Under the pieces are notes generated by a model. The model worked only from the letters and a program-made list of their open reading frames with translations. It did not search any database and was not told the origin of the DNA. A program made the translations under genes and the position numbers. From Isosphaeraceae bacterium EP7 (GTDB lineage: Bacteria > Planctomycetota > Planctomycetia > Isosphaerales > Isosphaeraceae), in the NCBI GenBank assembly GCA_038400315.1, contig CP151667.1:1065174-1129173 (forward strand): a stretch of DNA of 64,000 bases. The letters run 5' to 3'. Shown in pieces: positions 42,487 through 52,995 of this stretch (the stretch's first letter is position 1; every line of letters begins with the position of its first letter).

Positions 42487-42697
42487 TCTCGCAACCCGAA
42501 ATCGCACGTCGCTGCCGACGTCCGTACTCGTGAAAGCCGGCGTACGCAACGTCGCTCTGCGTTAGGCCGTCATCCCGGAAGGGACGGTCGGGACGCGAGG
42601 GCTCGCGGCGATCGCTCGGCCTGCGATTCGGGTCCGCGCCTCGATCAAATCCCCACATTTCTTGGAATTGTCTGAAATCTCCACGCCGGAGTTTCCC

Positions 42698-43651
42698 ATG
42701 CGCCCTCATCGTCGGCATGCGTTCACGTTGATCGAATTGCTCGTCGTCATCTCGATCATCGCCGTCCTGATCGCCCTGCTGCTTCCCGCCGTCCAGAGCG
42801 CCCGCGAGGCCGCCCGCCGGGCTCAGTGCGTCAACAATCTCAAACAGTTGGGTATCGCTGCCCACAGCTATCACGACCAGGTCGGTGCGCTACCCGGATC
42901 CTACCTCGTCTACAACGTCACGTCGTTCTCGGCGCTCAGCATGATGCTGCCCCAGCTGGAGCAAACGCCGATGTACAACGCCCTGAACTTCACCTTGAAC
43001 TTTGCCGATGCGGCGAACAGCACGGTGCTGATGTCCGACGTGAGCGCATTCATCTGCCCATCGGACCTTCCGAACCCCATCCGCGCCCGCGGGTCACAGA
43101 CCAATTACATGGCCGACATGGGAAGCTGGATCGTTTGGCAAATGGCGTCCGGGCCCAATGCCGGGATGCGCGGGCCGGACGGTACGTTCTTCGGGAATAG
43201 CTCGACCCGGTTTTCCGCCATCATCGACGGACTGTCCAACACTGCGATGTTCAGCGAGCGGGTGATGGCCGATGGGAGCAACGCCATCATCAGTCCCAGG
43301 AGCGACGTCTTCTTCTCCCCGGCCGCCCCGACCACGCTCGACGAGGCTGTGCAAATCTGCCAGGCGGTGAATATCGCCGACCTGAGCAGCCAGTTCCCCT
43401 TGTTCATGGGCTCACCCTGGCTCAACGGCCAGCACGTCTTCCAGCACGTCAATGTGCCGAATTCTCGGTCGTGCGGGTTCTTCACCATCTTGCGGGCGAG
43501 CATGCCCCCCAGCAGTCGACACCCCGGCGGAGTCAACACGCTGATGGGTGACGGATCGGTCCGGTTCGTGAAGGACACGGTCAATCTGGCCGCCTGGCGC
43601 GCCCTCGGTACCATCGCGGGCGGGGAGGTGATCAGTGCCGACTCCTTCTAA
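42698..43651 (+). CDS. DUF1559 pseudopilin-like protein
   Basis: 317 residues. The prepilin-like N-terminus reads [20 protein letters not shown], with Ala instead of Gly before the processed Phe, a tolerated but less common variant. [18 protein letters not shown] continues the helix and [18 protein letters not shown] carries the H-x9-DG motif. It is the same family as the protein at 30099-31130. The lipoprotein gene starts eight bases past its stop, opening a run of eight closely spaced plus-strand genes. Confidence 0.92.
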
Positions 43652-43658
43652 TCCCTCG

Positions 43659-44060
43659 ATGAAACGGCCGATGCGGGCGTCGGTCGCGTACTCCACGCCG
43701 ACAGCATTCATGGCGTTCGTGTTCCTGATCTTCGGCTGCAACGAGCAGGAGCGAGCGGCACCCGTCGAGCCGGCCAAGGCGCGCGAAGCCCTGGTCCAGG
43801 CGCTCGAATGCTGGAAGCGCGGCGAGCCGATCGAGACGCTGAAGTCTGCCTCGCCGCCGATCGTTGCGCAAGACTTCGACTGGATGGCCGGCAAGAAGTT
43901 GGCCGCGTATGAAGTTGCCGGCAAAGGCAAGGACGACGATGCCAACTTGCGGATCCCCGTGAAGCTCACCTTACTGACGCCCCAGGGGCAGCAGTCGACG
44001 AAGAGCGTGAACTACGTTGTGGGCACCAGCCCGGCACTCACGGTCTTCCGCGACTTCTGA
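43659..44060 (+). CDS. Small lipoprotein paired with DUF1559
   Basis: 133 residues. The signal ends in a lipobox (FVFLIFGC). The mature part, with AREALVQALECWKRGEP, PPIVAQDFDW, IPVKLTLLTPQG and VNYVVGTSPALTVFRDF, aligns end to end with the lipoprotein at 31157-31534. No named family is known to me. The likely ATG at 43659 is eight bases past the DUF1559 stop; a GTG at 43635 would overlap it. The pairing suggests that the lipoprotein serves the pseudopilin, for instance as an assembly or anchoring factor; that is inference. Confidence 0.8.
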   Translation: MKRPMRASVAYSTPTAFMAFVFLIFGCNEQERAAPVEPAKAREALVQALECWKRGEPIETLKSASPPIVAQDFDWMAGKKLAAYEVAGKGKDDDANLRIPVKLTLLTPQGQQSTKSVNYVVGTSPALTVFRDF

Positions 44061-44092
44061 TCGAACCCAATCCCTCTTCCGAGGACTTGCCG

Positions 44093-45472
44093 ATGATGCC
44101 CTCGACCAACACGGGAACCCTGATCGCCCTGGGGCTCGCGATCCTTGCGACCTTCGTCCATGTCAGCCCGTCCCTGGGCGAAGCCCCGGCCGCCCCGCAA
44201 CTGACCGATGCCGAGGCCTGGGCCCGCATGCCCAAGGCGACAGAAGGGGGTGGGCAGGCCCTGCCCAGCTGGGCGAAAGCCGTCGCGGCCCGTTTGCCTC
44301 GTACCGCAGCGGCGATGCTCCAGGTTGACTTCGCGCAGCGCACCAAAAGCCCACTCGCCCCGAAGCTGAGGGCCAAGATGCGCTGGGTTGTTGCCCACGC
44401 AAACCGTTGCGCCTACTCAGAAGCCTACGCCCTGGCCGACCTCAGGCGAGCGGGTGCCGACGACGCGTCCATCGCGACACTCATCGGTGACCCGGCCGGC
44501 TGGCCCCAGTCCGATCGGGAGCCCCTCGAATTCGCCCGCCTGCATACCCTCGCCGCCCCGACCATCCCCGACTCGCTGTTCGCCTCATTGCGTGAGACTT
44601 ACGGCGACAAGGGCGTTGCGTCCATGGTCTTGCTGGGGGCCTACGGCAACTTCCAGGATCGGATCGTGCTCGGCCTCGGCCTGCCAATCGAGGAGGGCGG
44701 GCCACTCGCCCCGTTGAAAGTCACGTTCGCCCCGGGGGCGTTCCAGGCGGCGCCGATCTTGCCTCCGCAGGCCGGGCTGCCGCAACTTCTGTCGCAAGGC
44801 GAGACGGTAGTCGACCGCGACCCTCGATGGTCGTCCCTGTCGTACGACGAGTTGCAATCCAGGCTCGAGAAGCAGCGTGCCCGTACGCCCCGACTACCGG
44901 TCCCGACCTGGGACGAGGTCAAGAAAGGCCTCCCCCCCGAGTTTGCCGGCCGCCCCACCCGGATCGTCTGGAACCTCGTCTGCTCGGGCTATGTCCCCGA
45001 ACTGGCCGTCCCCTGGAGCACCTCGACCCGGACGATGTGGGCCGAGACGAAGGCCGACCGCGTCTTCGAGGAGAGCCTCTTCTGGGTCCAGACTCGCGCG
45101 ATCCAGTGCAATTACTGCATGGGTCACTGCGAGATGCTGCTGGAGCTTGCCGGCCTGGACAAGGAGGCCGTCGCCGAGCGGACTCGCAAGCTGGCCGGCG
45201 ACGACTGGTCCGCCTTCCCCCCCGCCGAGCAGCGTGCGTACGCATATGCACGGAAGCTGAGCCAGACTCCCTGGGATCTGACCCGCGCCGACTACGAGAC
45301 TCTGGAACGCGACCTCGGTCCCGACCGGGCGATGGCCACGTTCTGGTGGCTCTGCCGCGGCCTGTACATGACCCGCGTCTCCGATGGGTTTCAGCTCCCG
45401 CTGGAGCGCGAGAACGTCTTCGAAGACTTCGAAAACAAGGTCCCTTCGACCGACCCGTTGAAGACACGCTGA
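44093..45472 (+). CDS. Exported double carboxymuconolactone-decarboxylase/AhpD-like protein
   Basis: About 459 residues. An N-terminal hydrophobic segment (GTLIALGLAILATFVHV) is a signal peptide or anchor. Two CMD/AhpD-like helical domains follow: the first (about 85-200) has only one cysteine at the active-site position (ANRCAYSEAY, Cys106), while the second (about 285-440) has the redox motif CNYCMGHC (Cys339, 342, 346). AhpD proteins reduce peroxiredoxin partners; here the next gene encodes a secreted redoxin, so a thiol-relay pair is plausible. ATG 44093 follows GAGGA by seven bases; a second ATG is at 44096. Confidence 0.82.
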   Translation: MMPSTNTGTLIALGLAILATFVHVSPSLGEAPAAPQLTDAEAWARMPKATEGGGQALPSWAKAVAARLPRTAAAMLQVDFAQRTKSPLAPKLRAKMRWVVAHANRCAYSEAYALADLRRAGADDASIATLIGDPAGWPQSDREPLEFARLHTLAAPTIPDSLFASLRETYGDKGVASMVLLGAYGNFQDRIVLGLGLPIEEGGPLAPLKVTFAPGAFQAAPILPPQAGLPQLLSQGETVVDRDPRWSSLSYDELQSRLEKQRARTPRLPVPTWDEVKKGLPPEFAGRPTRIVWNLVCSGYVPELAVPWSTSTRTMWAETKADRVFEESLFWVQTRAIQCNYCMGHCEMLLELAGLDKEAVAERTRKLAGDDWSAFPPAEQRAYAYARKLSQTPWDLTRADYETLERDLGPDRAMATFWWLCRGLYMTRVSDGFQLPLERENVFEDFENKVPSTDPLKTR

Positions 45473-45528: not shown

Positions 45529-46770
45529 ATGCGAATCACCGGCTATCTGCGACTGGCGAGCCTGACGCTCGCCCTGACGGGAGCCTCGGCCTATGCCCAG
45601 CAGCCGGGCCCAGCCTCGAACCCCGAGGACGAGGCGCGGAAGGCGATTACCAGGGCTCTCGACGAATCTTACCCCGACCGACCCGAGTGGCTGGACATGC
45701 TGACTGACATCCTCCAGGGGAGCCAGCTTGGCCCCGAGGACGGCTGGTTCCGCCGCGCCGTCGCGCAGACGAAATTCGGCTGGGAAGCGACCCGGAGCCG
45801 GCTCGACGGCGACGCCGACGGCAAGATTTCCAGGGCGGAATTCCAGGGCTCCGACCTCGACTTCGCCCGTCTCGACCGTGACCGCGACGGCTCGCTAACC
45901 AAGGATGATTTCGACTTCACGCCCCACGCGCTCGCTCCGTCGCCCGGCGCCATGCTCTTCTATCGGGCCGACCGCGACGGCAACGGCAAGATCACCAGTG
46001 AAGAGCTGGATGTCTTCTTCAAGGCGACCGACAGCGGCGACCAGGGTTTCTTGTCGCTCTCGGACCTTCAGGAGGCCTTCCGCTCGCCGTCAAGGCCGGC
46101 GACCAGGGACGCAAAGCCGAAGGAGTCGAGCGGTCCTTCGAAGGAGATCCTCGTTCGTGGCTTGTTTCGACAGGAGATCGGCTCACTCCAGCCGGGCCCG
46201 GCGGTAGGCGAGTCGGCCCCCGACTTCACGCTGAAGACCAATGATGGCAAGGGGGAGATCACGCTTTCGAAACTCGTCGGATCGAAGCCCGTGGTCCTCG
46301 TCTTCGGCAATTTCACCTGCGGGCCGTTCCGAAGCCAGGCGGGGAACGTGGAGAAGCTTTACCGCCGTTACAAGGATCGGGCCACGTTCGTCATGGTCTA
46401 CGTCCGCGAGGCCCATCCGACCGACGGCTGGCGGATGGAGAGCAACGACCGGGTCGAGGTGACGCTTGCTCAGCCTACGACTTACGAGGAACGTGTGAAT
46501 GTCGCCCAGGCGTGCAGCTCTCGCCTGAAACTCGGCTTCCCGATGCTGGTCGACTCGATCGACGACGCCGTGGGTGCCCGCTACAGCGGGATGCCCAGCC
46601 GGCTCTATCTCATCGATGACGATGGCAAGGTCGCTTACAAGAGTGGGCGGGGGCCATTCGGATTCAAGCCGGCCGAGCTCGAGCATTCTCTCGTACTCCT
46701 GCTCCTGCAGGGCGAGAAGTCACGGCCTTCGGCGGTGCAGGGAGTTCCCCGGGCCGCCGCTGACCGGTAA
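45529..46770 (+). CDS. Secreted EF-hand / iodothyronine-deiodinase-like redoxin fusion
   Basis: 413 residues with a signal peptide (LASLTLALTGASAYAQ). Residues 93-180 hold four EF-hand-like loops: DGDADGKISRAE, DRDRDGSLTKDD, DRDGNGKITSEE and a degenerate DSGDQGFLSLSD. Residues 225-395 form a thioredoxin-fold domain of the T4 deiodinase type: FTCGPFRSQ with Cys264 where animal deiodinases have selenocysteine, YVREAHPTDGW (295-301), DSIDDAVGARY, and PSRLYLIDDDGKVAYKSG. The catalytic position is a normal Cys codon, so no recoding is needed. The substrate is surely not thyroid hormone; a peroxidase, dehalogenase or thiol-reductase role is open. It lies 57 bases after the AhpD-like gene. Confidence 0.88.
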   Translation: MRITGYLRLASLTLALTGASAYAQQPGPASNPEDEARKAITRALDESYPDRPEWLDMLTDILQGSQLGPEDGWFRRAVAQTKFGWEATRSRLDGDADGKISRAEFQGSDLDFARLDRDRDGSLTKDDFDFTPHALAPSPGAMLFYRADRDGNGKITSEELDVFFKATDSGDQGFLSLSDLQEAFRSPSRPATRDAKPKESSGPSKEILVRGLFRQEIGSLQPGPAVGESAPDFTLKTNDGKGEITLSKLVGSKPVVLVFGNFTCGPFRSQAGNVEKLYRRYKDRATFVMVYVREAHPTDGWRMESNDRVEVTLAQPTTYEERVNVAQACSSRLKLGFPMLVDSIDDAVGARYSGMPSRLYLIDDDGKVAYKSGRGPFGFKPAELEHSLVLLLLQGEKSRPSAVQGVPRAAADR

Positions 46771-46854: not shown

Positions 46855-46917
46855 CAACTTCGAAGCGACCCGTTCGGCACGGTGACCCCACTCGATCTCC
46901 CTCAGGAAAACGGATCC

Positions 46918-47448
46918 ATGCGCAATCTCGCCACGTCCATCCTCATCGGTGCCGGCCTGGTCGGCTACCAAGCGTCCAAGCCGCAGGCGCCCGCCGGTCA
47001 TCACGCCGAAGGCGCCTCGCAGGCCGCCGCGGACACCTATGAGCACCTGGCCACCGCCATCATCGCGATCGAGGCGACCGAGGACGAGCTGGTCAAGAGC
47101 ATTCTTATCGGTTACGAGACCGCCGCCCAAGGCCATCTCGCCGCGGCCACCCGCGACGCCCAGGGCCGGGTCGGCCACCTCGAGTCGGCAGCCGCAGAGA
47201 TCACCAACATCGCCAACGAGGGGGACAAGAAGATCCAGGCCATCCGACAGCGGCTGGCGAAGGCCGGGCACACGCACAACACCGACGCCGAGACCAAGGG
47301 TGACTACCTCTTCGTGACCAATCGCGAGAAGAAGGGGCTGCTCGACCTGGCCTCGAAGGTCGGCCGCGCCGGTGCCGACACCGGCGAGATCAAGACGCTG
47401 GGAGATGAACTCACCAAGCTGTTCGGCGCCGCCATCGCCCCAGAGTGA
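46918..47448 (+). CDS. Small exported helical protein of unknown function
   Basis: 176 residues. A short hydrophobic N-terminus (ATSILIGAGLVGYQAS) looks like a signal peptide or anchor. The remainder is almost entirely alpha-helical and rich in Ala, Glu and Lys, with scattered His (PAGHHAEGAS, AGHTHNTDAET). Helices such as TYEHLATAIIAIEATEDELVK suggest a small helical bundle. I do not recognise a family; ferritin-like or hemerythrin-like metal sites cannot be affirmed because there is no clear repeated ExxH pattern. The ATG at 46918 is the first plausible one. It lies between the redoxin and the ASPIC/UnbV lipoprotein genes. Confidence 0.7.
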   Translation: MRNLATSILIGAGLVGYQASKPQAPAGHHAEGASQAAADTYEHLATAIIAIEATEDELVKSILIGYETAAQGHLAAATRDAQGRVGHLESAAAEITNIANEGDKKIQAIRQRLAKAGHTHNTDAETKGDYLFVTNREKKGLLDLASKVGRAGADTGEIKTLGDELTKLFGAAIAPE

Positions 47449-47522
47449 TCCGAGTCCAGCCGCCGTTACGTCCCCCGAGGCCATCGCCCGTCCTGGCGGC
47501 CTCGGGGGCGGAGATCCCGACC

Positions 47523-49232
47523 ATGTTGCGCAGCCGCCTCGCCTTCGTGGTCCTCTTGGGCCTTCCTGCCTGTCAACCTTCTTCGGCCTTGCCCGTGGTT
47601 CCGACGGCGAAGGCCCCGTCCGGGAAGGTCGGGCCAGCCGATCCTCTGTTTGTCGAGGTCGGCAATGCGTCCGGGCTGACGACTGTGCTCCACGGCGGGG
47701 GCGAGGATAAGGACCATATCCTCGAATCGGTCGGTTCCGGCTGCGCGTTCGTCGATTTCGATGGCGACACCCATCTCGACGTCTTCCTTATCAATGCCTG
47801 GGCCCTGGACGAGGAGCCATCACGGGTCCGCCATCAGGGTCGCAATGCGCTCTATCGGAACCGGGGTGACGGAACCTTTGAGGATGTGACGGAACGCGCC
47901 GGGGTGGCCGATGAGAGCTGGGGTTGCGGCGTCTCGGCCGGCGACTACGACAACGATGGACTGGTCGATTTTTACGTCACCAACTTCGGCCCCAATCGGC
48001 TCTACCGGAATAAAGGGGACGGCAGCTTCGAGCAGGTTGCGGAGCGTGCGGGCGTCGCCGACACGGGTTGGGGCGCCGGCTCGTCGTTCTTCGACGCCGA
48101 CGGCGACGGCGACCTCGACCTTTACGTTGCCAACTATATTCACGCAACGATGGACGAAGTGCTTGCGGCCCGCCGCACGACTGTTTGGCGCGAGAAGGTC
48201 AAGGTGCTCGCGGGCCCGTTCGGATTCCGCGGCGGCCGCGACAAGTACTTCCTGAACCAGGGCGACGGCACCTTCCGCGACGCCACCGACGAGGCAGGTT
48301 TGACGGACACGGCGGAGTCATACGGGCTGGGCGTGCTGGCTTCGGACCTCGACCTCGACGGCGACATCGACCTATTCATCGCCAATGACTCCAACCCGAA
48401 CTACGTCTATCGCAATGATGGTTCGGGCAAGTTCACCGAGATGGGCGGCTGGAGCGGCGCGGGCCTCAGCGGCGGCGGCGTGGCCCAGGCCGGAATGGGG
48501 GTCGACGCGGCCGACTTCGATGGCGACGGCCGACCCGACATCCTCCTGACCACCTTCGCCAAGGATTCGGCGACCCTCTTCCGCAACGAGGGCGACCTCC
48601 TCTTCAACGACATCTCCGCGTCGATCGGCCTGAAGAAGATTACCTACGAGGCCCTGAAATGGGGCTGCGCCTTCTTCGATTACGACCAGGACGCCGACGT
48701 CGACATCGTCATCGCCAACGGCCATATCTACCCGCAGGTCGACCATGACCCGAGCTTGAATGAGAGTTACAAGCAGACCCCCTTTCTCCTTCGCAACGAC
48801 GGTGGCCAGCTCGTCGACGTCTCGGACCGGGCCGGACCGGCCTTTCGGATCGCTGCCTCGGCGCGAGGGCTCGCGGTGGGAGATTACGATGGCGACGGCG
48901 ACCTGGACCTGCTGATCACGGCGATGGACTCTCGCCCGCTGCTGCTCCGCAACGACACCCCGAATCCCGGGAACTGGCTGAAGGTGCGCCCGCTCAACCG
49001 CCACGGAAGCCCCGCCATCGGGGCCCGAGTCAGCCTGACGGAGGGGGGCAGGGTTCAGACAAGAGAGCTTCGGAGCGGCTCGTCGCATCAGTCGCAAAAT
49101 GCCCTGGAGATGCATTTCGGGTTGGGCCAATCGGTCGTGGTCTCACAGCTCGAGGTTACCTGGCCGGGCGGGTCGAAGACTCTGCTCCACGAGGTGGCCA
49201 CGGGTCGGGTAATCACCGTTCGCCAGCCCTGA
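47523..49232 (+). CDS. CRTAC1-type FG-GAP/VCBS propeller lipoprotein with ASPIC/UnbV domain
   Basis: 569 residues. A lipobox ends the signal (VVLLGLPAC). Repeated FG-GAP/VCBS units carry Ca-binding loops: VDFDGDTHLDVFL, GDYDNDGLVDFYV, FDADGDGDLDLYV, SDLDLDGDIDLFI, ADFDGDGRPDILL, FDYDQDADVDIVI and GDYDGDGDLDLLI. The C-terminal ASPIC/UnbV domain (about 500-569) reads NWLKVRPLNRHGSPAIGARV and VTWPGGSKTLLHEVATG. Such proteins are surface-exposed and presumably Ca-stabilised adhesion or binding platforms; homologues are plentiful in planctomycetes. The start at 47523 begins the lipoprotein signal. It is the last clearly exported member of the run before acetate kinase. Confidence 0.9.
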   Translation: MLRSRLAFVVLLGLPACQPSSALPVVPTAKAPSGKVGPADPLFVEVGNASGLTTVLHGGGEDKDHILESVGSGCAFVDFDGDTHLDVFLINAWALDEEPSRVRHQGRNALYRNRGDGTFEDVTERAGVADESWGCGVSAGDYDNDGLVDFYVTNFGPNRLYRNKGDGSFEQVAERAGVADTGWGAGSSFFDADGDGDLDLYVANYIHATMDEVLAARRTTVWREKVKVLAGPFGFRGGRDKYFLNQGDGTFRDATDEAGLTDTAESYGLGVLASDLDLDGDIDLFIANDSNPNYVYRNDGSGKFTEMGGWSGAGLSGGGVAQAGMGVDAADFDGDGRPDILLTTFAKDSATLFRNEGDLLFNDISASIGLKKITYEALKWGCAFFDYDQDADVDIVIANGHIYPQVDHDPSLNESYKQTPFLLRNDGGQLVDVSDRAGPAFRIAASARGLAVGDYDGDGDLDLLITAMDSRPLLLRNDTPNPGNWLKVRPLNRHGSPAIGARVSLTEGGRVQTRELRSGSSHQSQNALEMHFGLGQSVVVSQLEVTWPGGSKTLLHEVATGRVITVRQP

Positions 49233-49330
49233 GGGGTTGCCGCGGGGGCATGCGTGCGGGAAACTTGCGACGGGAATGCCTTTCCGACGGCGAGGCTTTC
49301 CCATCCAGCGCGTTTGCCGAGAGTGAATCC

Positions 49331-50554
49331 ATGGCGACCGACCGAGCGGAACAACCACTTCGCATCCCCGACCGCTCGGCCATCCTGGCCATCAACGGCG
49401 GGTCCTCGAGCATCAAGTTCGCCCTGTTCGATTCCACGGATCCGGATCATCGCCTTTTCTCCGGGCGTGTGGAACGCATCGGCCTGGCCGACCCTCGTCT
49501 GGTGACGTTCAGGGGGGATGGCACATCCGAGACGAGCGCCGTCGAGGCCCCCGACAGCCGGGCCGCCGGTTTGGCGGTGATCGGATGGATCGAAGCCGAG
49601 GTTGGCTGTCGGGCCCTGGCGGCAATCGGCCATCGAGTGGTCCACGGGGGCCCCCGATATCGTCGGCCGGAGCCGATCACGGGCGAGCTGCTCGAGGAAT
49701 TGCGCCGAATCCAGGCGTACGACCCCGAGCATCTCCCGGGCGAGATCGACCTGATCGAGGCGTTTCAGGCCCATGCCCCTGACATCCCGCAGGCCGCCTG
49801 CTTCGACACGGCCTTCCACCACGACATGCCCCGGGTCGCCCAGATGGTGGCGATTCCCCGCCGGTTTGAAGCCTTGGGTGTCAGGCGTTATGGATTCCAC
49901 GGGTTGTCGTATGAATTCCTCCTGGAGGAATTGAGGCGAGTCGGCGGCGACCACGAGGCGGGCGGCCGTGTGATCCTGGCCCACCTGGGGTCGGGGGCGA
50001 GCATGGCGGCGGTCCTCGCCGGTGTCTCGATCGAGACGACGATGGGCTTCACCCCCACCTCAGGCCTGATGATGGGCACTCGCTCGGGCGACCTCGATCC
50101 GGGGCTCGTGCGATTTCTCATGCAGGAAGAGGGGATGACCGTCGACCAGTTCCACGCGATGGTCAACCACCAGTCGGGCTTGCTGGGGGTCTCGGAGACG
50201 AGCCCAGACGTGCGCGACCTCCTTGGACGCCGGTCGGTCGACTCTCGAGCGGCCGAGGCCATCGACCTCTTCTGCCATCGGGCGAGGCAGTGGATCGGGG
50301 CCCTGACCGCGACGCTCGGCGGCCTCGACACGCTCGTCTTCTCCGGCGGGATCGGCGAGAACTCGCCCGAGATACGCGCGTCGATCTGCGAGCGGCTTGG
50401 CTTCCTCGGCATCAATCTCGACGCCCCGCGAAACGGGCGGAACGAGTCGGTCATCTCGACGGACGACTCCACGGCCAAGGTCCGCGTCATTCGCACCGAT
50501 GAAGAGCGGTCGATCGCCAGGGCCGTCGCCGGGCTCAGATTGAACCAATCCTGA
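49331..50554 (+). CDS. ackA: Acetate kinase
   Basis: 407 residues, the usual family length. Signatures are [17 protein letters not shown] (phosphate-binding strand, with Gly instead of the common Ala after Asn), [20 protein letters not shown] and [22 protein letters not shown] (the second family signature), then [13 protein letters not shown] near the C-terminus. It interconverts acetyl phosphate plus ADP with acetate plus ATP in the cytoplasm. The phosphoketolase gene follows 51 bases later, so the pair forms a complete ATP-yielding shunt. The ATG at 49331 is chosen by homology. Confidence 0.93.
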
Positions 50555-50604
50555 TCGAGCTCGAACCTCGACAGCCACGCGGAAGACCTTTGAGGGTTCG
50601 ACTT

Positions 50605-52995
50605 GTGACCAGGAATTCCGGCACGTCCGGCCCCGCGGATCCGGGACTGCTCGCCAGAATGGACGCCTACTGGCGCGCGGCCAACTACCTCTCCGTGGGC
50701 CAGATCTACCTGTACGACAACCCACTTCTGAGGGAGCCCCTGACCCTCGAGCACGTCAAGCCGAGGCTCCTAGGCCACTGGGGGACGACGCCAGGCCAGA
50801 ATTTTATCTATGTCCATTTGAACCGGGTCATCCAACGCGATTCTCTGGAGATGCTCTACATCTCGGGCCCCGGCCACGGCGGTCCGGCGCTGGTGGCCAA
50901 CACCTATCTGGAAGGGACGTATTCCGAATATTATTCGAACATCACGCGGGATGAGGCGGGCCTGAAGCTCCTCTTCAAGCAGTTCTCCTTCCCGGGCGGC
51001 ATCCCCAGCCACGTCGCGCCCGAGACGCCCGGGTCGATCCACGAGGGGGGCGAACTCGGCTACTCGCTCAGCCACGCTTACGGCGCGGTCTTCGACAACC
51101 CGAATCTCGTCGTCGCATGCGTCATCGGCGACGGCGAGGCCGAGACCGGGCCGCTGGCCACGAGCTGGCACGGCAATAAGTTCCTCGACCCGGTCCACGA
51201 CGGCGTCGTGCTGCCGATCCTCCACCTCAATGGATACAAGATCGCCAACCCGGCGGTCCTGGCACGCATCGGCCGCGACGAGCTCGAGATGCTCATGCGA
51301 GGCTACGGCTATACGCCCTACTTCGTCGAAGGAGACGAGCCCGAGGCGATGCATCGGTTGATGGCCGAGACCCTCGACACCGTCTTCGCAGAGATCGAGG
51401 CGATCCAGGCCGCGGCCAGGGAAGGGGGCGTCTCCGACCGGCCTCGATGGCCAATGATCGTTCTCAAGACCCCCAAAGGCTGGACCGGTCCGAAGGTGGT
51501 CGACGGCCTGCCGGTCGAGGGGACCTATCGGTCGCACCAGGTCCCACTGTCCAATCCCAGGGCACACCCCGAGCACCTGACGATGCTCGAAACCTGGATG
51601 CGCAGCTACCGCCCCGAAGAGTTGTTCGACGAGGCGGGCACGCTCAGGCCCGAGCTTGCCGCGCTCGCCCCCGCAGGCGATCTGCGGATGGGGGCGAACC
51701 CTCACGCCAACGGCGGCCTGCTGCTCCACGACCTCCATCTCCCCGATTTCCGCGACTTCGGCATCGATGTCCCTCAACCGGGAGGCGTCACGGGCGAGGA
51801 CACCAGGACCCTGGGCGAGTTCCTCCGCGACGTGATCTGGCGGAACAGGAACGAGCGTAACTTCCGCATCTTCGGGCCCGACGAGACCGCGTCGAACCGC
51901 CTGACCGCCGTCCTGGAGATCACCGACAAGCAGTGGCAGGCCGAGGTGGTGGACACCGATGACCACCTCGCCTGCGAAGGCAGGGTCGTCGAGATGCTCA
52001 GCGAGCACCAGTGCGAGGGATGGCTGGAGGGATACCTGCTGACGGGACGCCACGGCCTGTTCAACTGCTACGAGGCGTTCATCCACATCATTGACTCGAT
52101 GTTCAATCAGCATGCGAAGTGGCTGAAAGTGACCAGGGGCATCCCCTGGCGCCGACCGATCGCCTCGCTGAACATCCTGCTCTCTTCGCACGTCTGGCGA
52201 CAGGACCACAACGGATTCACCCATCAGGATCCCGGCTTCATCGACCACGTGGTCAACAAGAAGGCCGAGATCGTCCGAGTCTACCTGCCGCCGGACACCA
52301 ACACGCTGCTCTCGGTGATGGACCACTGCCTTCGCAGCCGCCACTACGTCAACGTGGTCGTGGCCAGCAAGCATCCGTCGCCGCAGTGGCTCAACATGGA
52401 CTCGGCGGTCAAGCATTGCACGGCCGGGATCGGCATCTGGGGATGGGCCAGCAATGACAAGGGCAGCGAGCCCGACGTCGTCATGGCCTGCGCGGGCGAC
52501 GTCCCCACGCTGGAAACCCTCGCCGCCGTTCAACTCCTCCGAGAGCACATCCCGAATCTGAAGGTGCGGGTCGTCAACGTCGTCGACCTGATGAAGCTCC
52601 AGCCCAAGACCGAGCACCCGCACGGGCTGAACGACCACGACTTCGACACCCTCTTCACACGCGACAAGCCGATCGTCTTCGCCTACCACGGCTACCCCTG
52701 GCTGATCCATCGGCTGACCTATCGTCGGACCAACCACGGCAACCTGCACGTCCGCGGATACAAAGAGGAAGGGACGATCAGCACGCCTTTCGATATGGCC
52801 GTGATGAACGATCTCGATCGGTTCCATCTCGTCGGAGACGTCGTCGACCGCCTGCCGGAGCAAGACAGCGTGGCGGCTTATGCCAAGCAGGCCATGCGCG
52901 ACAAGTTGACCGAGCACCGGCAATACATCACCAAATTCGGCGAAGATATGCCCGAAATCCGCAACTGGAAATGGACCGTGCCCGCGCCCGTCTGA
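50605..52995 (+). CDS. xfp: Xylulose-5-phosphate/fructose-6-phosphate phosphoketolase
   Basis: About 796 residues, the family norm. The N-terminal signature region has [15 protein letters not shown] and [39 protein letters not shown] follows, and [20 protein letters not shown] binds thiamine diphosphate. The C-terminal half contains [13 protein letters not shown] and [14 protein letters not shown]. The enzyme cleaves xylulose-5-P or fructose-6-P with phosphate into acetyl-P plus glyceraldehyde-3-P or erythrose-4-P. The probable start is GTG at 50605, with GAGG about eight bases upstream; a TTG at 50590 is an alternative. It is preceded by ackA and followed by a branched RNA-like structure. 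Confidence 0.95.

Follow-up and report, generated by a model that had tools for sequence, protein, structure and literature searches.

The window, a stretch of 64,000 nucleotides from Isosphaeraceae bacterium EP7, carries a compact run of four genes on the same strand, encoding a DUF1559 protein, a small lipoprotein-like protein, a protein with CMD/AhpD-like domains and a protein in which EF-hands are joined to a deiodinase-like domain. These genes, and the features of the last one, are as follows.

42662-43651, + strand: DUF1559 (SBP_bac_10) protein with an N-methylation motif, first gene of the cassette (Pfam, related neighbourhoods)
43635-44060, + strand: small lipoprotein-like ORF of 141 aa, with a lipobox-like LIFGC recognised by eye (related neighbourhoods)
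44087-45472, + strand: double CMD/AhpD-like partner (P0002), 461 aa from a TTG start (Pfam, alignment of 26)
45529-46770, + strand: EF-hand and deiodinase-like protein (PF00837, NF038285), Cys form, 413 aa, with ATG at 45529 and TAA ending at 46770 (Pfam, NCBIfam)
45529-45597, + strand: signal-peptide-like N-terminus with a basic start, a hydrophobic stretch and A-Y-A before residue 24 (by eye)
45805-45840, + strand: EF-hand loop 1, DGDADGKISRAE, residues 93-104 (protein sequence, Pfam)
45874-45909, + strand: EF-hand loop 2, DRDRDGSLTKDD, residues 116-127 (protein sequence, alignment)
45970-46005, + strand: EF-hand loop 3, DRDGNGKITSEE, residues 148-159 (protein sequence, Pfam)
46030-46065, + strand: weak EF-hand-like loop 4, DSGDQGFLSLSD, residues 168-179 (protein sequence)
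46204-46692, + strand: deiodinase-like thioredoxin-fold domain, residues 226-388 (Pfam and predicted fold)
46318-46320, + strand: TGC codon of Cys264, the Sec position in Dio3 and a TGA in 56 of 139 relatives (alignment)
46513-46515, + strand: codon of Cys329, the sole other Cys of the protein (139-row alignment)

The 413-aa protein is built in the order signal-peptide-like start, helical region, EF-hand loops, linker and deiodinase domain, and judging from its sequence it is probably exported. The T4_deiodinase model (PF00837) matches residues 226-388 with an E-value of 4.1e-27 (95.5 bits against a cut-off of 27), covering model positions 75-233 of 237, and the AhpC-TSA model (9.4e-12) ranks below it on the same protein, where the Redoxin model matches too. 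NF038285 (deiodinase_rel, "deiodinase family protein", type hypoth_equivalog), a family listed without function or partner, matches residues 48-393 at model positions 3-345 of 347 with 522.7 bits against a cut-off of 250; together with the Pfam matches, this score rules out a chance or mis-called ORF at 45529-46770. The combination of EF-hands and deiodinase domain is already known, since NCBI names it as NF038285, and between this family and the window protein there is no difference in architecture, both having the same EF-hand region and deiodinase domain. The window protein adds a member to a family that already has a name, and the novelty lies in its partnership with the AhpD-like protein.

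The earlier note, made from the letters of the window, had described three good EF-hand loops and one weak one, and this description agrees with the loop sequences and with Pfam, where EF-hand_6, EF-hand_7, EF-hand_1 and EF-hand_5 were over the cut-off (best 2.2e-09) and EF-hand_8 was under it. Loops 1 to 3 match the 12-residue EF-hand ligand pattern, and D116 and D127, at positions 1 and 12 of loop 2, were invariant in 37 aligned sequences including that of the window. The module probably binds Ca2+, and outside the cytoplasm calcium is more likely to have a structural than a regulatory role. The idea that the EF-hand fusion is distinctive did not hold, as it belongs to a single NCBI family already and the EF-loop pattern was present in 109 of the 113 relatives whose upstream frame is long, so that a fusion unique to the window's genome is ruled out. 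EF-hands were also found in the three more distant planctomycete deiodinases tested (L033, L058 and L061), and therefore the fusion is either old or arose more than once. In the tree these three are distant from the NF038285 group, and their Sec site is a TGA.

By sequence, the closest PDB chains were Dio3 (3.6e-20) and Dio2 (3.5e-16), followed by a Bacteroides redoxin (2ls5, 1.1e-06) and an EF-hand thioredoxin (5e37, 4.8e-04), which we take to be the calredoxin of Chlamydomonas. Calredoxin likewise joins EF-hands to a thioredoxin domain (PMC4911631), but that domain is a plain thioredoxin without the deiodinase loop, and its sequence match is weak. The AlphaFold2 model of the window protein, built on 37 sequences, had a mean pLDDT of 89.0 and a pTM of 0.85, and a Foldseek search with it placed Dio3 first (7.3e-11, TM 0.81 on target) and Dio2 second, after which came ResA and further chains of the thioredoxin type and, lower down, Bcp1 and AhpE.

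PF00837 was present in 118 of 392 Planctomycetota genomes and over the cut-off in 115. A tree was computed by a quick search from an alignment of Dio2 and Dio3 with 139 deiodinase-like and four redoxin rows from planctomycetes, from which the columns for Sec, Ser167 and Glu259 had been removed; the bacterial rows are from Planctomycetota only and come from the best 80 of at least 591 relatives in a contig profile search. The four redoxins split off at a support of 98*, and Dio2 and Dio3 fell inside the bacterial rows, at an exact place that is unsure because the tree was quick and gave long-branch warnings. The window protein belonged to a starred set of 38 rows, all with Cys. The earlier note had placed the domain with deiodinases and not with ordinary peroxiredoxins, and both the fold search, with Dio3 and Dio2 in front, and the split of the redoxins agree with it; from the phylogeny with Cys/Sec and EF-hand state that it proposed, the deiodinase placement stood, and the EF-hand fusion turned out to be widespread among the relatives. 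An ordinary peroxiredoxin or ResA is ruled out by the Pfam ranking, Foldseek, the tree and the peroxiredoxin active-site signature PxxxTxxC, which occurred in none of the 139 rows (the window protein has L257, N261 and C264).

All deiodinase motif blocks named beforehand are present in the window protein (T263-C264-G-P-F, E294-A-H-P-T-D-G-W, D-S-I-D-D-A-V-G and P356-S-R-L-Y...G-K-V-A-Y-K), and the assignment of Cys264 to the Sec position of a deiodinase-type domain is confirmed by Pfam, the PDB sequence alignment and the 139-row alignment. In the PDB sequence alignment, Dio3 T169, Sec170, Y197, E200 and H202 correspond to Thr263, Cys264, Tyr291, Glu294 and His296, and Dio3 W207, Gln218, R225, Arg260 and R275 to Trp301, Gln315, Arg322, Arg358 and Arg374. 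The deiodinase loop and anchor network (Dio3 T169, Y197, E200, H202, W207, R225 and R275) is thereby complete, with seven of seven residues; roles of the Dio3 active-site residues are described in PMC7506546 and PMC11592359. Among the 139 bacterial rows, which were partly picked by patterns containing these active-site motifs, the active site was Cys or Sec in every row, Tyr291, Glu294, His296 and Arg358 were present in all, Thr263 and Arg322 in 138, Trp301 in 129, Gln315 in 127 and Arg374 in 113. Tyr291, Glu294 and His296 were absent from the four redoxins in the alignment.

With Dio2 and Dio3 (9h48, 4tr3) the window protein shares the thioredoxin-fold core, Thr-(Sec/Cys), Tyr, Glu-Ala-His, Trp, the loop-D insertion and the equivalents of Dio3 Arg225, Arg260 and Arg275, but it differs from them in having Cys for Sec, an EF-hand region, a signal-peptide-like start and the extra Cys329. 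It also differs from Dio3 at Ser167, Cys168, His219, Phe258 and Glu259, which are Asn261, Phe262, Pro316, Pro356 and Ser357 in the window protein, Ser167, His219 and Glu259 all three being replaced; Pro356 was found in 139 of 139 bacterial rows and Pro316 in 134. Cys329, which may be a resolving Cys, was present in 119 of the 139 rows and in 52 of the 56 Sec rows; the position is Leu in Dio2 and Dio3, and since it is Phe in 17 rows, this Cys is not essential in all members.

The site of Cys264 is encoded by TGA in 56 of the 139 rows and is Cys in 83, and among the matches listed for the Planctomycetota genomes, the stops read through in PF00837 matches were all TGA. At the position of Dio3 Glu259, the TGA forms, which are probably Sec forms with Sec insertion at this codon, had Asp or Glu (56/56), and the Cys forms had Ala, Ser, Asn or Gly (81/83, with the exceptions L149 and L154_b). 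At the position of Dio3 Ser167, Ser was found in 56 of 56 Sec forms and Asn in 78 of 83 Cys forms. The Cys/Sec state changed at least five times on the tree, and in independent pairs on supported branches Sec went with the acidic residue in the same direction in three of three (two of three in a few of 200 pairings), a number too small for significance, and with Ser167 in one of three.

That two active-site positions vary in step with the Cys state, and that the window's clade retains its EF-loop patterns, could speak for a Cys clade that has lost catalysis and whose members act within the cassette as structural proteins that bind calcium or sense the redox state. However, Cys or Sec occupies the site in all 139 rows, with no exception at E294, H296 and Y291 either, where drift would be expected of a dead enzyme; this argument is weakened because the rows were partly picked by patterns holding the motifs. 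A loss of catalysis is considered highly improbable.

A SECIS-like hairpin of seven pairs, starting at the 11th base after the UGA, was examined in deiodinase TGA sequences with a long upstream frame (32 sequences, being relatives of the family and a few others). All seven pairs were present in 23 of the 32, with related sequences counted repeatedly, the apical-loop G was present in all 32, and one pair exchanged among G-C, A-U and C-G, whereas none of 77 Cys sequences of the same kind had more than five pairs. The paired-cell share was 0.87 over the TGA sequences and 0.42 in the Cys sequences, and sliding one side by 1-3 bases gave 0.22 to 0.63. Among TGA sequences whose upstream frame is short, all seven pairs were found at this spot in 5 of 20. 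An Rfam gathering search on eight TGA loci gave no match to any family, SECIS included, and the single-sequence fold z-scores after the deiodinase UGA were weak (-1.97 to +0.18, n=5), with -1.25 to -2.31 for three CMD TGAs and +1.12 and +1.21 for two Cys sites of the window; the pair count from the alignment is better evidence for the hairpin than these z-scores.

In the 14 of 40 genomes counted as having a TGA copy of either gene (G029 from a sub-cut-off match whose TGA site was unchecked), SelB was present in 14, SelA in 13 and tRNA-Sec in 13; the exceptions are G013, whose SelA is split into two matches below the cut-off, and the incomplete G021, in which no clear tRNA-Sec was found. The window's genome had no SelA or SelB over the cut-off, and its best tRNA-Sec match reached 47.4 bits against a gathering threshold of 47, level with the SelA-lacking G007 and G009 and far below the 23 genomes that scored 62 bits or more. 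A Cys state merely forced by Sec loss was considered as well, and such a simple replacement is argued against because SelB was present in 10 of the 14 genomes (among 40) with only Cys deiodinases over the cut-off, and because Cys and TGA copies occur side by side in five genomes (G002, G013, G015, G017 and G021). For deiodinase-like proteins, UxxC is given in a 2026 review (PMC13188914); unlike this, the bacterial rows read U-G-P-F or U-P-P-F, with no Cys three residues on. One Cys-type copy (L152) has an internal TAG, which may reflect gene decay or a mistake in the sequencing.

The AhpD-like protein next door, to which the earlier note had drawn attention, proved to be a recurring partner, both by linkage in related genomes and by fusions. 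Its first domain is degenerate (CAYS, with the second Cys and the His lost), and the second reads C341-N-Y-C344-M-G-H, in which Cys, Tyr, Cys-or-TGA and Met-Gly-His were invariant in 26 of 26 aligned partners. The CMD model matched only domain 1 of the window's partner (2.6e-07, 31.0 against 23 bits) and was matched by 22 of the 26 homologues at E up to 1. In stop-holding CMD matches, repeats of one contig included, the stop was a TGA within CFY*MGH in 25 of 26; the TGA of the exception, L180, is near the end and may be a real stop.

Genes similar to P0002 (E up to 1e-30) were found at 31 places in 16 of 40 genomes, and at 21 of these places, against 0.15 expected, an NF038285 gene lay within 10 kb, on the same strand in 20 of the 21 and within 500 bp at 13 of the 31 places, fused genes included. 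An accidental CMD neighbour is ruled out by this linkage. Over the 40 genomes, both genes were present in 15, CMD alone in 1, deiodinase alone in 6 and neither in 18 (Fisher p 1.8e-05). A CMD gene within 10 kb was found for 15 of 32 deiodinase genes; counting against the partnership are the 17 of 32 without one within 15 kb, some of them near contig ends, and G005, which has three CMD copies and no deiodinase over the cut-off. The CMD gene lies upstream of the deiodinase gene in some genomes and downstream in others.

Deiodinase and CMD were joined in one stop-free frame in 18 of the 139 rows, with 12 changes on the tree, the CMD part being behind the deiodinase in 17 and in front in one (L128). 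In 7 of the 18, the deiodinase part has Cys and the CMD part has CFY*MGH (L114, L072, L077, L127, L137, L175 and L181). That the two have been fused repeatedly, and in either order, speaks more strongly than any other result here for their acting together. Three other ORFs (L068, L070 and L102; 857, 896 and 1119 aa) contain two double-CMD units, giving four CMD domains in tandem.

For the other genes of the cassette, a DUF1559 cluster was observed in 28 of 44 neighbourhoods, often followed by a small ORF beside the deiodinase or CMD gene, and the DUF1559 gene and the small lipoprotein-like ORF (42662-44060, +) form a recurring two-gene module. This linkage is weaker evidence than that of the CMD gene because DUF1559 matches are numerous in the window's own genome (111). 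The 188-codon ORF directly behind the deiodinase gene (46882-47448, +) had no family match over the cut-off and, at E up to 1e-5, no homologue in 43 related neighbourhoods. Further downstream, 47445-49232 (+) encodes an FG-GAP repeat protein with a UnbV/ASPIC domain, distant kin of which are found near some deiodinase or CMD genes (L071, L072, L085, L106 and L108), and two adjacent ORFs at 49250-52995 (+) resemble, by eye, acetate kinase and phosphoketolase, a possible pair of the phosphoketolase pathway.

The reading that we prefer, and hold to be somewhat probable, is that the window protein is an exported thiol/selenol reductase of the deiodinase family, in its Cys version, paired with a dedicated AhpD-like electron donor. 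It is based on homology, predicted fold, active-site residues, linkage, fusions and the in-frame TGA in both partners. The deiodinase-like protein would meet the substrate, which may be an organohalide, a peroxide or an oxidised protein thiol, and the AhpD-like protein would supply electrons, as AhpD serves AhpC as electron source. Cys264 would be held by the network of Thr263, Tyr291, Glu294 and His296, which positions Sec in vertebrate deiodinases, and would attack the substrate and be oxidised to a sulfenyl halide or sulfenic acid; Cys329 may resolve the oxidised Cys264, and the CxYC-MGH dithiol of domain 2 of the partner would return electrons. Outside the cytoplasm, the Ca2+ held by the EF-hand module would most likely have a structural role. 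Dehalogenase and peroxidase are choices of substrate within this reductase pair, and no activity for any family member was found in the literature searched.

To which known proteins the partner is closest bears on this choice. The model of a fused relative, L067 (pLDDT 90.3, pTM 0.67), matched Sestrin2 (5dj4) with Z 26.0 at 3.5 A over 298 residues, covering both AhpD-like halves, Dio2 with Z 18.7 and Dio3 with Z 17.8; single AhpD-like chains including Bmp8 reached a Z of about 14 to 16, in each case by aligning with the first half (model 374-558). As seen on this predicted model of a relative, not on the window protein, Sestrin2 has two AhpD-like halves in one chain in the same arrangement; it differs in that its first half keeps one Cys (PMC4674687), whereas the second half of the partner keeps a Cys pair. 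The likeness to sestrin is one of fold and not of membership, because the Pfam sestrin family was not among the families matched by the 26 partner members at E up to 1. A profile of the 26 partners matched PA0269 on domain 1 (1.6e-08), and among the matches listed Bmp8 (1.8e-07) was the only chain best on the catalytic domain 2. CxYCxxH is common to Bmp8 and domain 2, whereas the AhpD-type rows, those of PA0269 and the D. radiodurans AhpD, have CxYCxxxH, with the His one residue further on. Bmp8 and AhpD/CMD proteins share the CMD superfamily and the CxYC motif with the partner, but they are single-domain chains and the partner is a tandem of two.

The closeness of domain 2 to Bmp8, which removes bromine reductively (PMC5577590), together with the conserved deiodinase-type loop EAHxxDGW and Q...R pair and with Arg374 as the equivalent of Dio3 Arg275, speaks for genuine reductive dehalogenation of small organic compounds that carry iodine or bromine, in which the thiolate would take the halogen as X+ and the AhpD-like partner would be a second dehalogenating or re-reducing module. 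We regard it as unlikely, as five Dio3 positions differ (Ser167, Cys168, His219, Phe258 and Glu259), the six window proteins scanned included none recognisable as halogen-related, and the fold match of Bmp8 on L067 (model 377-558, Z 15.0) lies on the first, degenerate half, tied with other AhpD-like chains. The Bmp8 match may mean only the same superfamily, because few CMD structures exist.

The pair could instead be a periplasmic analogue of AhpC/AhpD, a Cys/Sec alkyl-hydroperoxide reductase recycled by the AhpD-like partner. This is possible, and we entertain it tentatively: the AhpC-TSA and Redoxin models match, ResA, Bcp1 and AhpE come after the deiodinases in the fold searches, and the partner is closest in fold to Sestrin2, which reduces cumene hydroperoxide (PMC4674687). 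Against it are the missing PxxxTxxC signature and the active half of Sestrin2, which is the first (PMC4674687), the half that is degenerate in the partner. Within the preferred reading of a reductase with its electron donor, a more far-reaching version is a two-part exported planctomycete reductive dehalogenase, made of a deiodinase-type reductase and a sestrin-like double AhpD as separate proteins or one chain, with a built-in electron donor and Cys/Sec-switchable sites, in which the deiodinase fold would have been at work before animals; this version we think distinctly improbable.

Cys and Sec forms of bacterial deiodinase-like proteins were reported in 2005 (PMC1088965), and the 2026 review includes deiodinase-like proteins among selenoproteins, most with largely unresolved function, and lists AhpD-like and CMD selenoproteins separately (PMC13188914). 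In the literature search, no title on a deiodinase-AhpD/CMD linkage or fusion was found, a mention inside a text being possible. With a recurring and sometimes fused partner, the orphan protein becomes part of a two-component system that can be tested, and the partner is the electron donor suggested for assays. In addition, the Cys and TGA paralogues, some of them in one genome, with their matched difference at the Glu259 position, are a natural experiment on the benefit of selenium.
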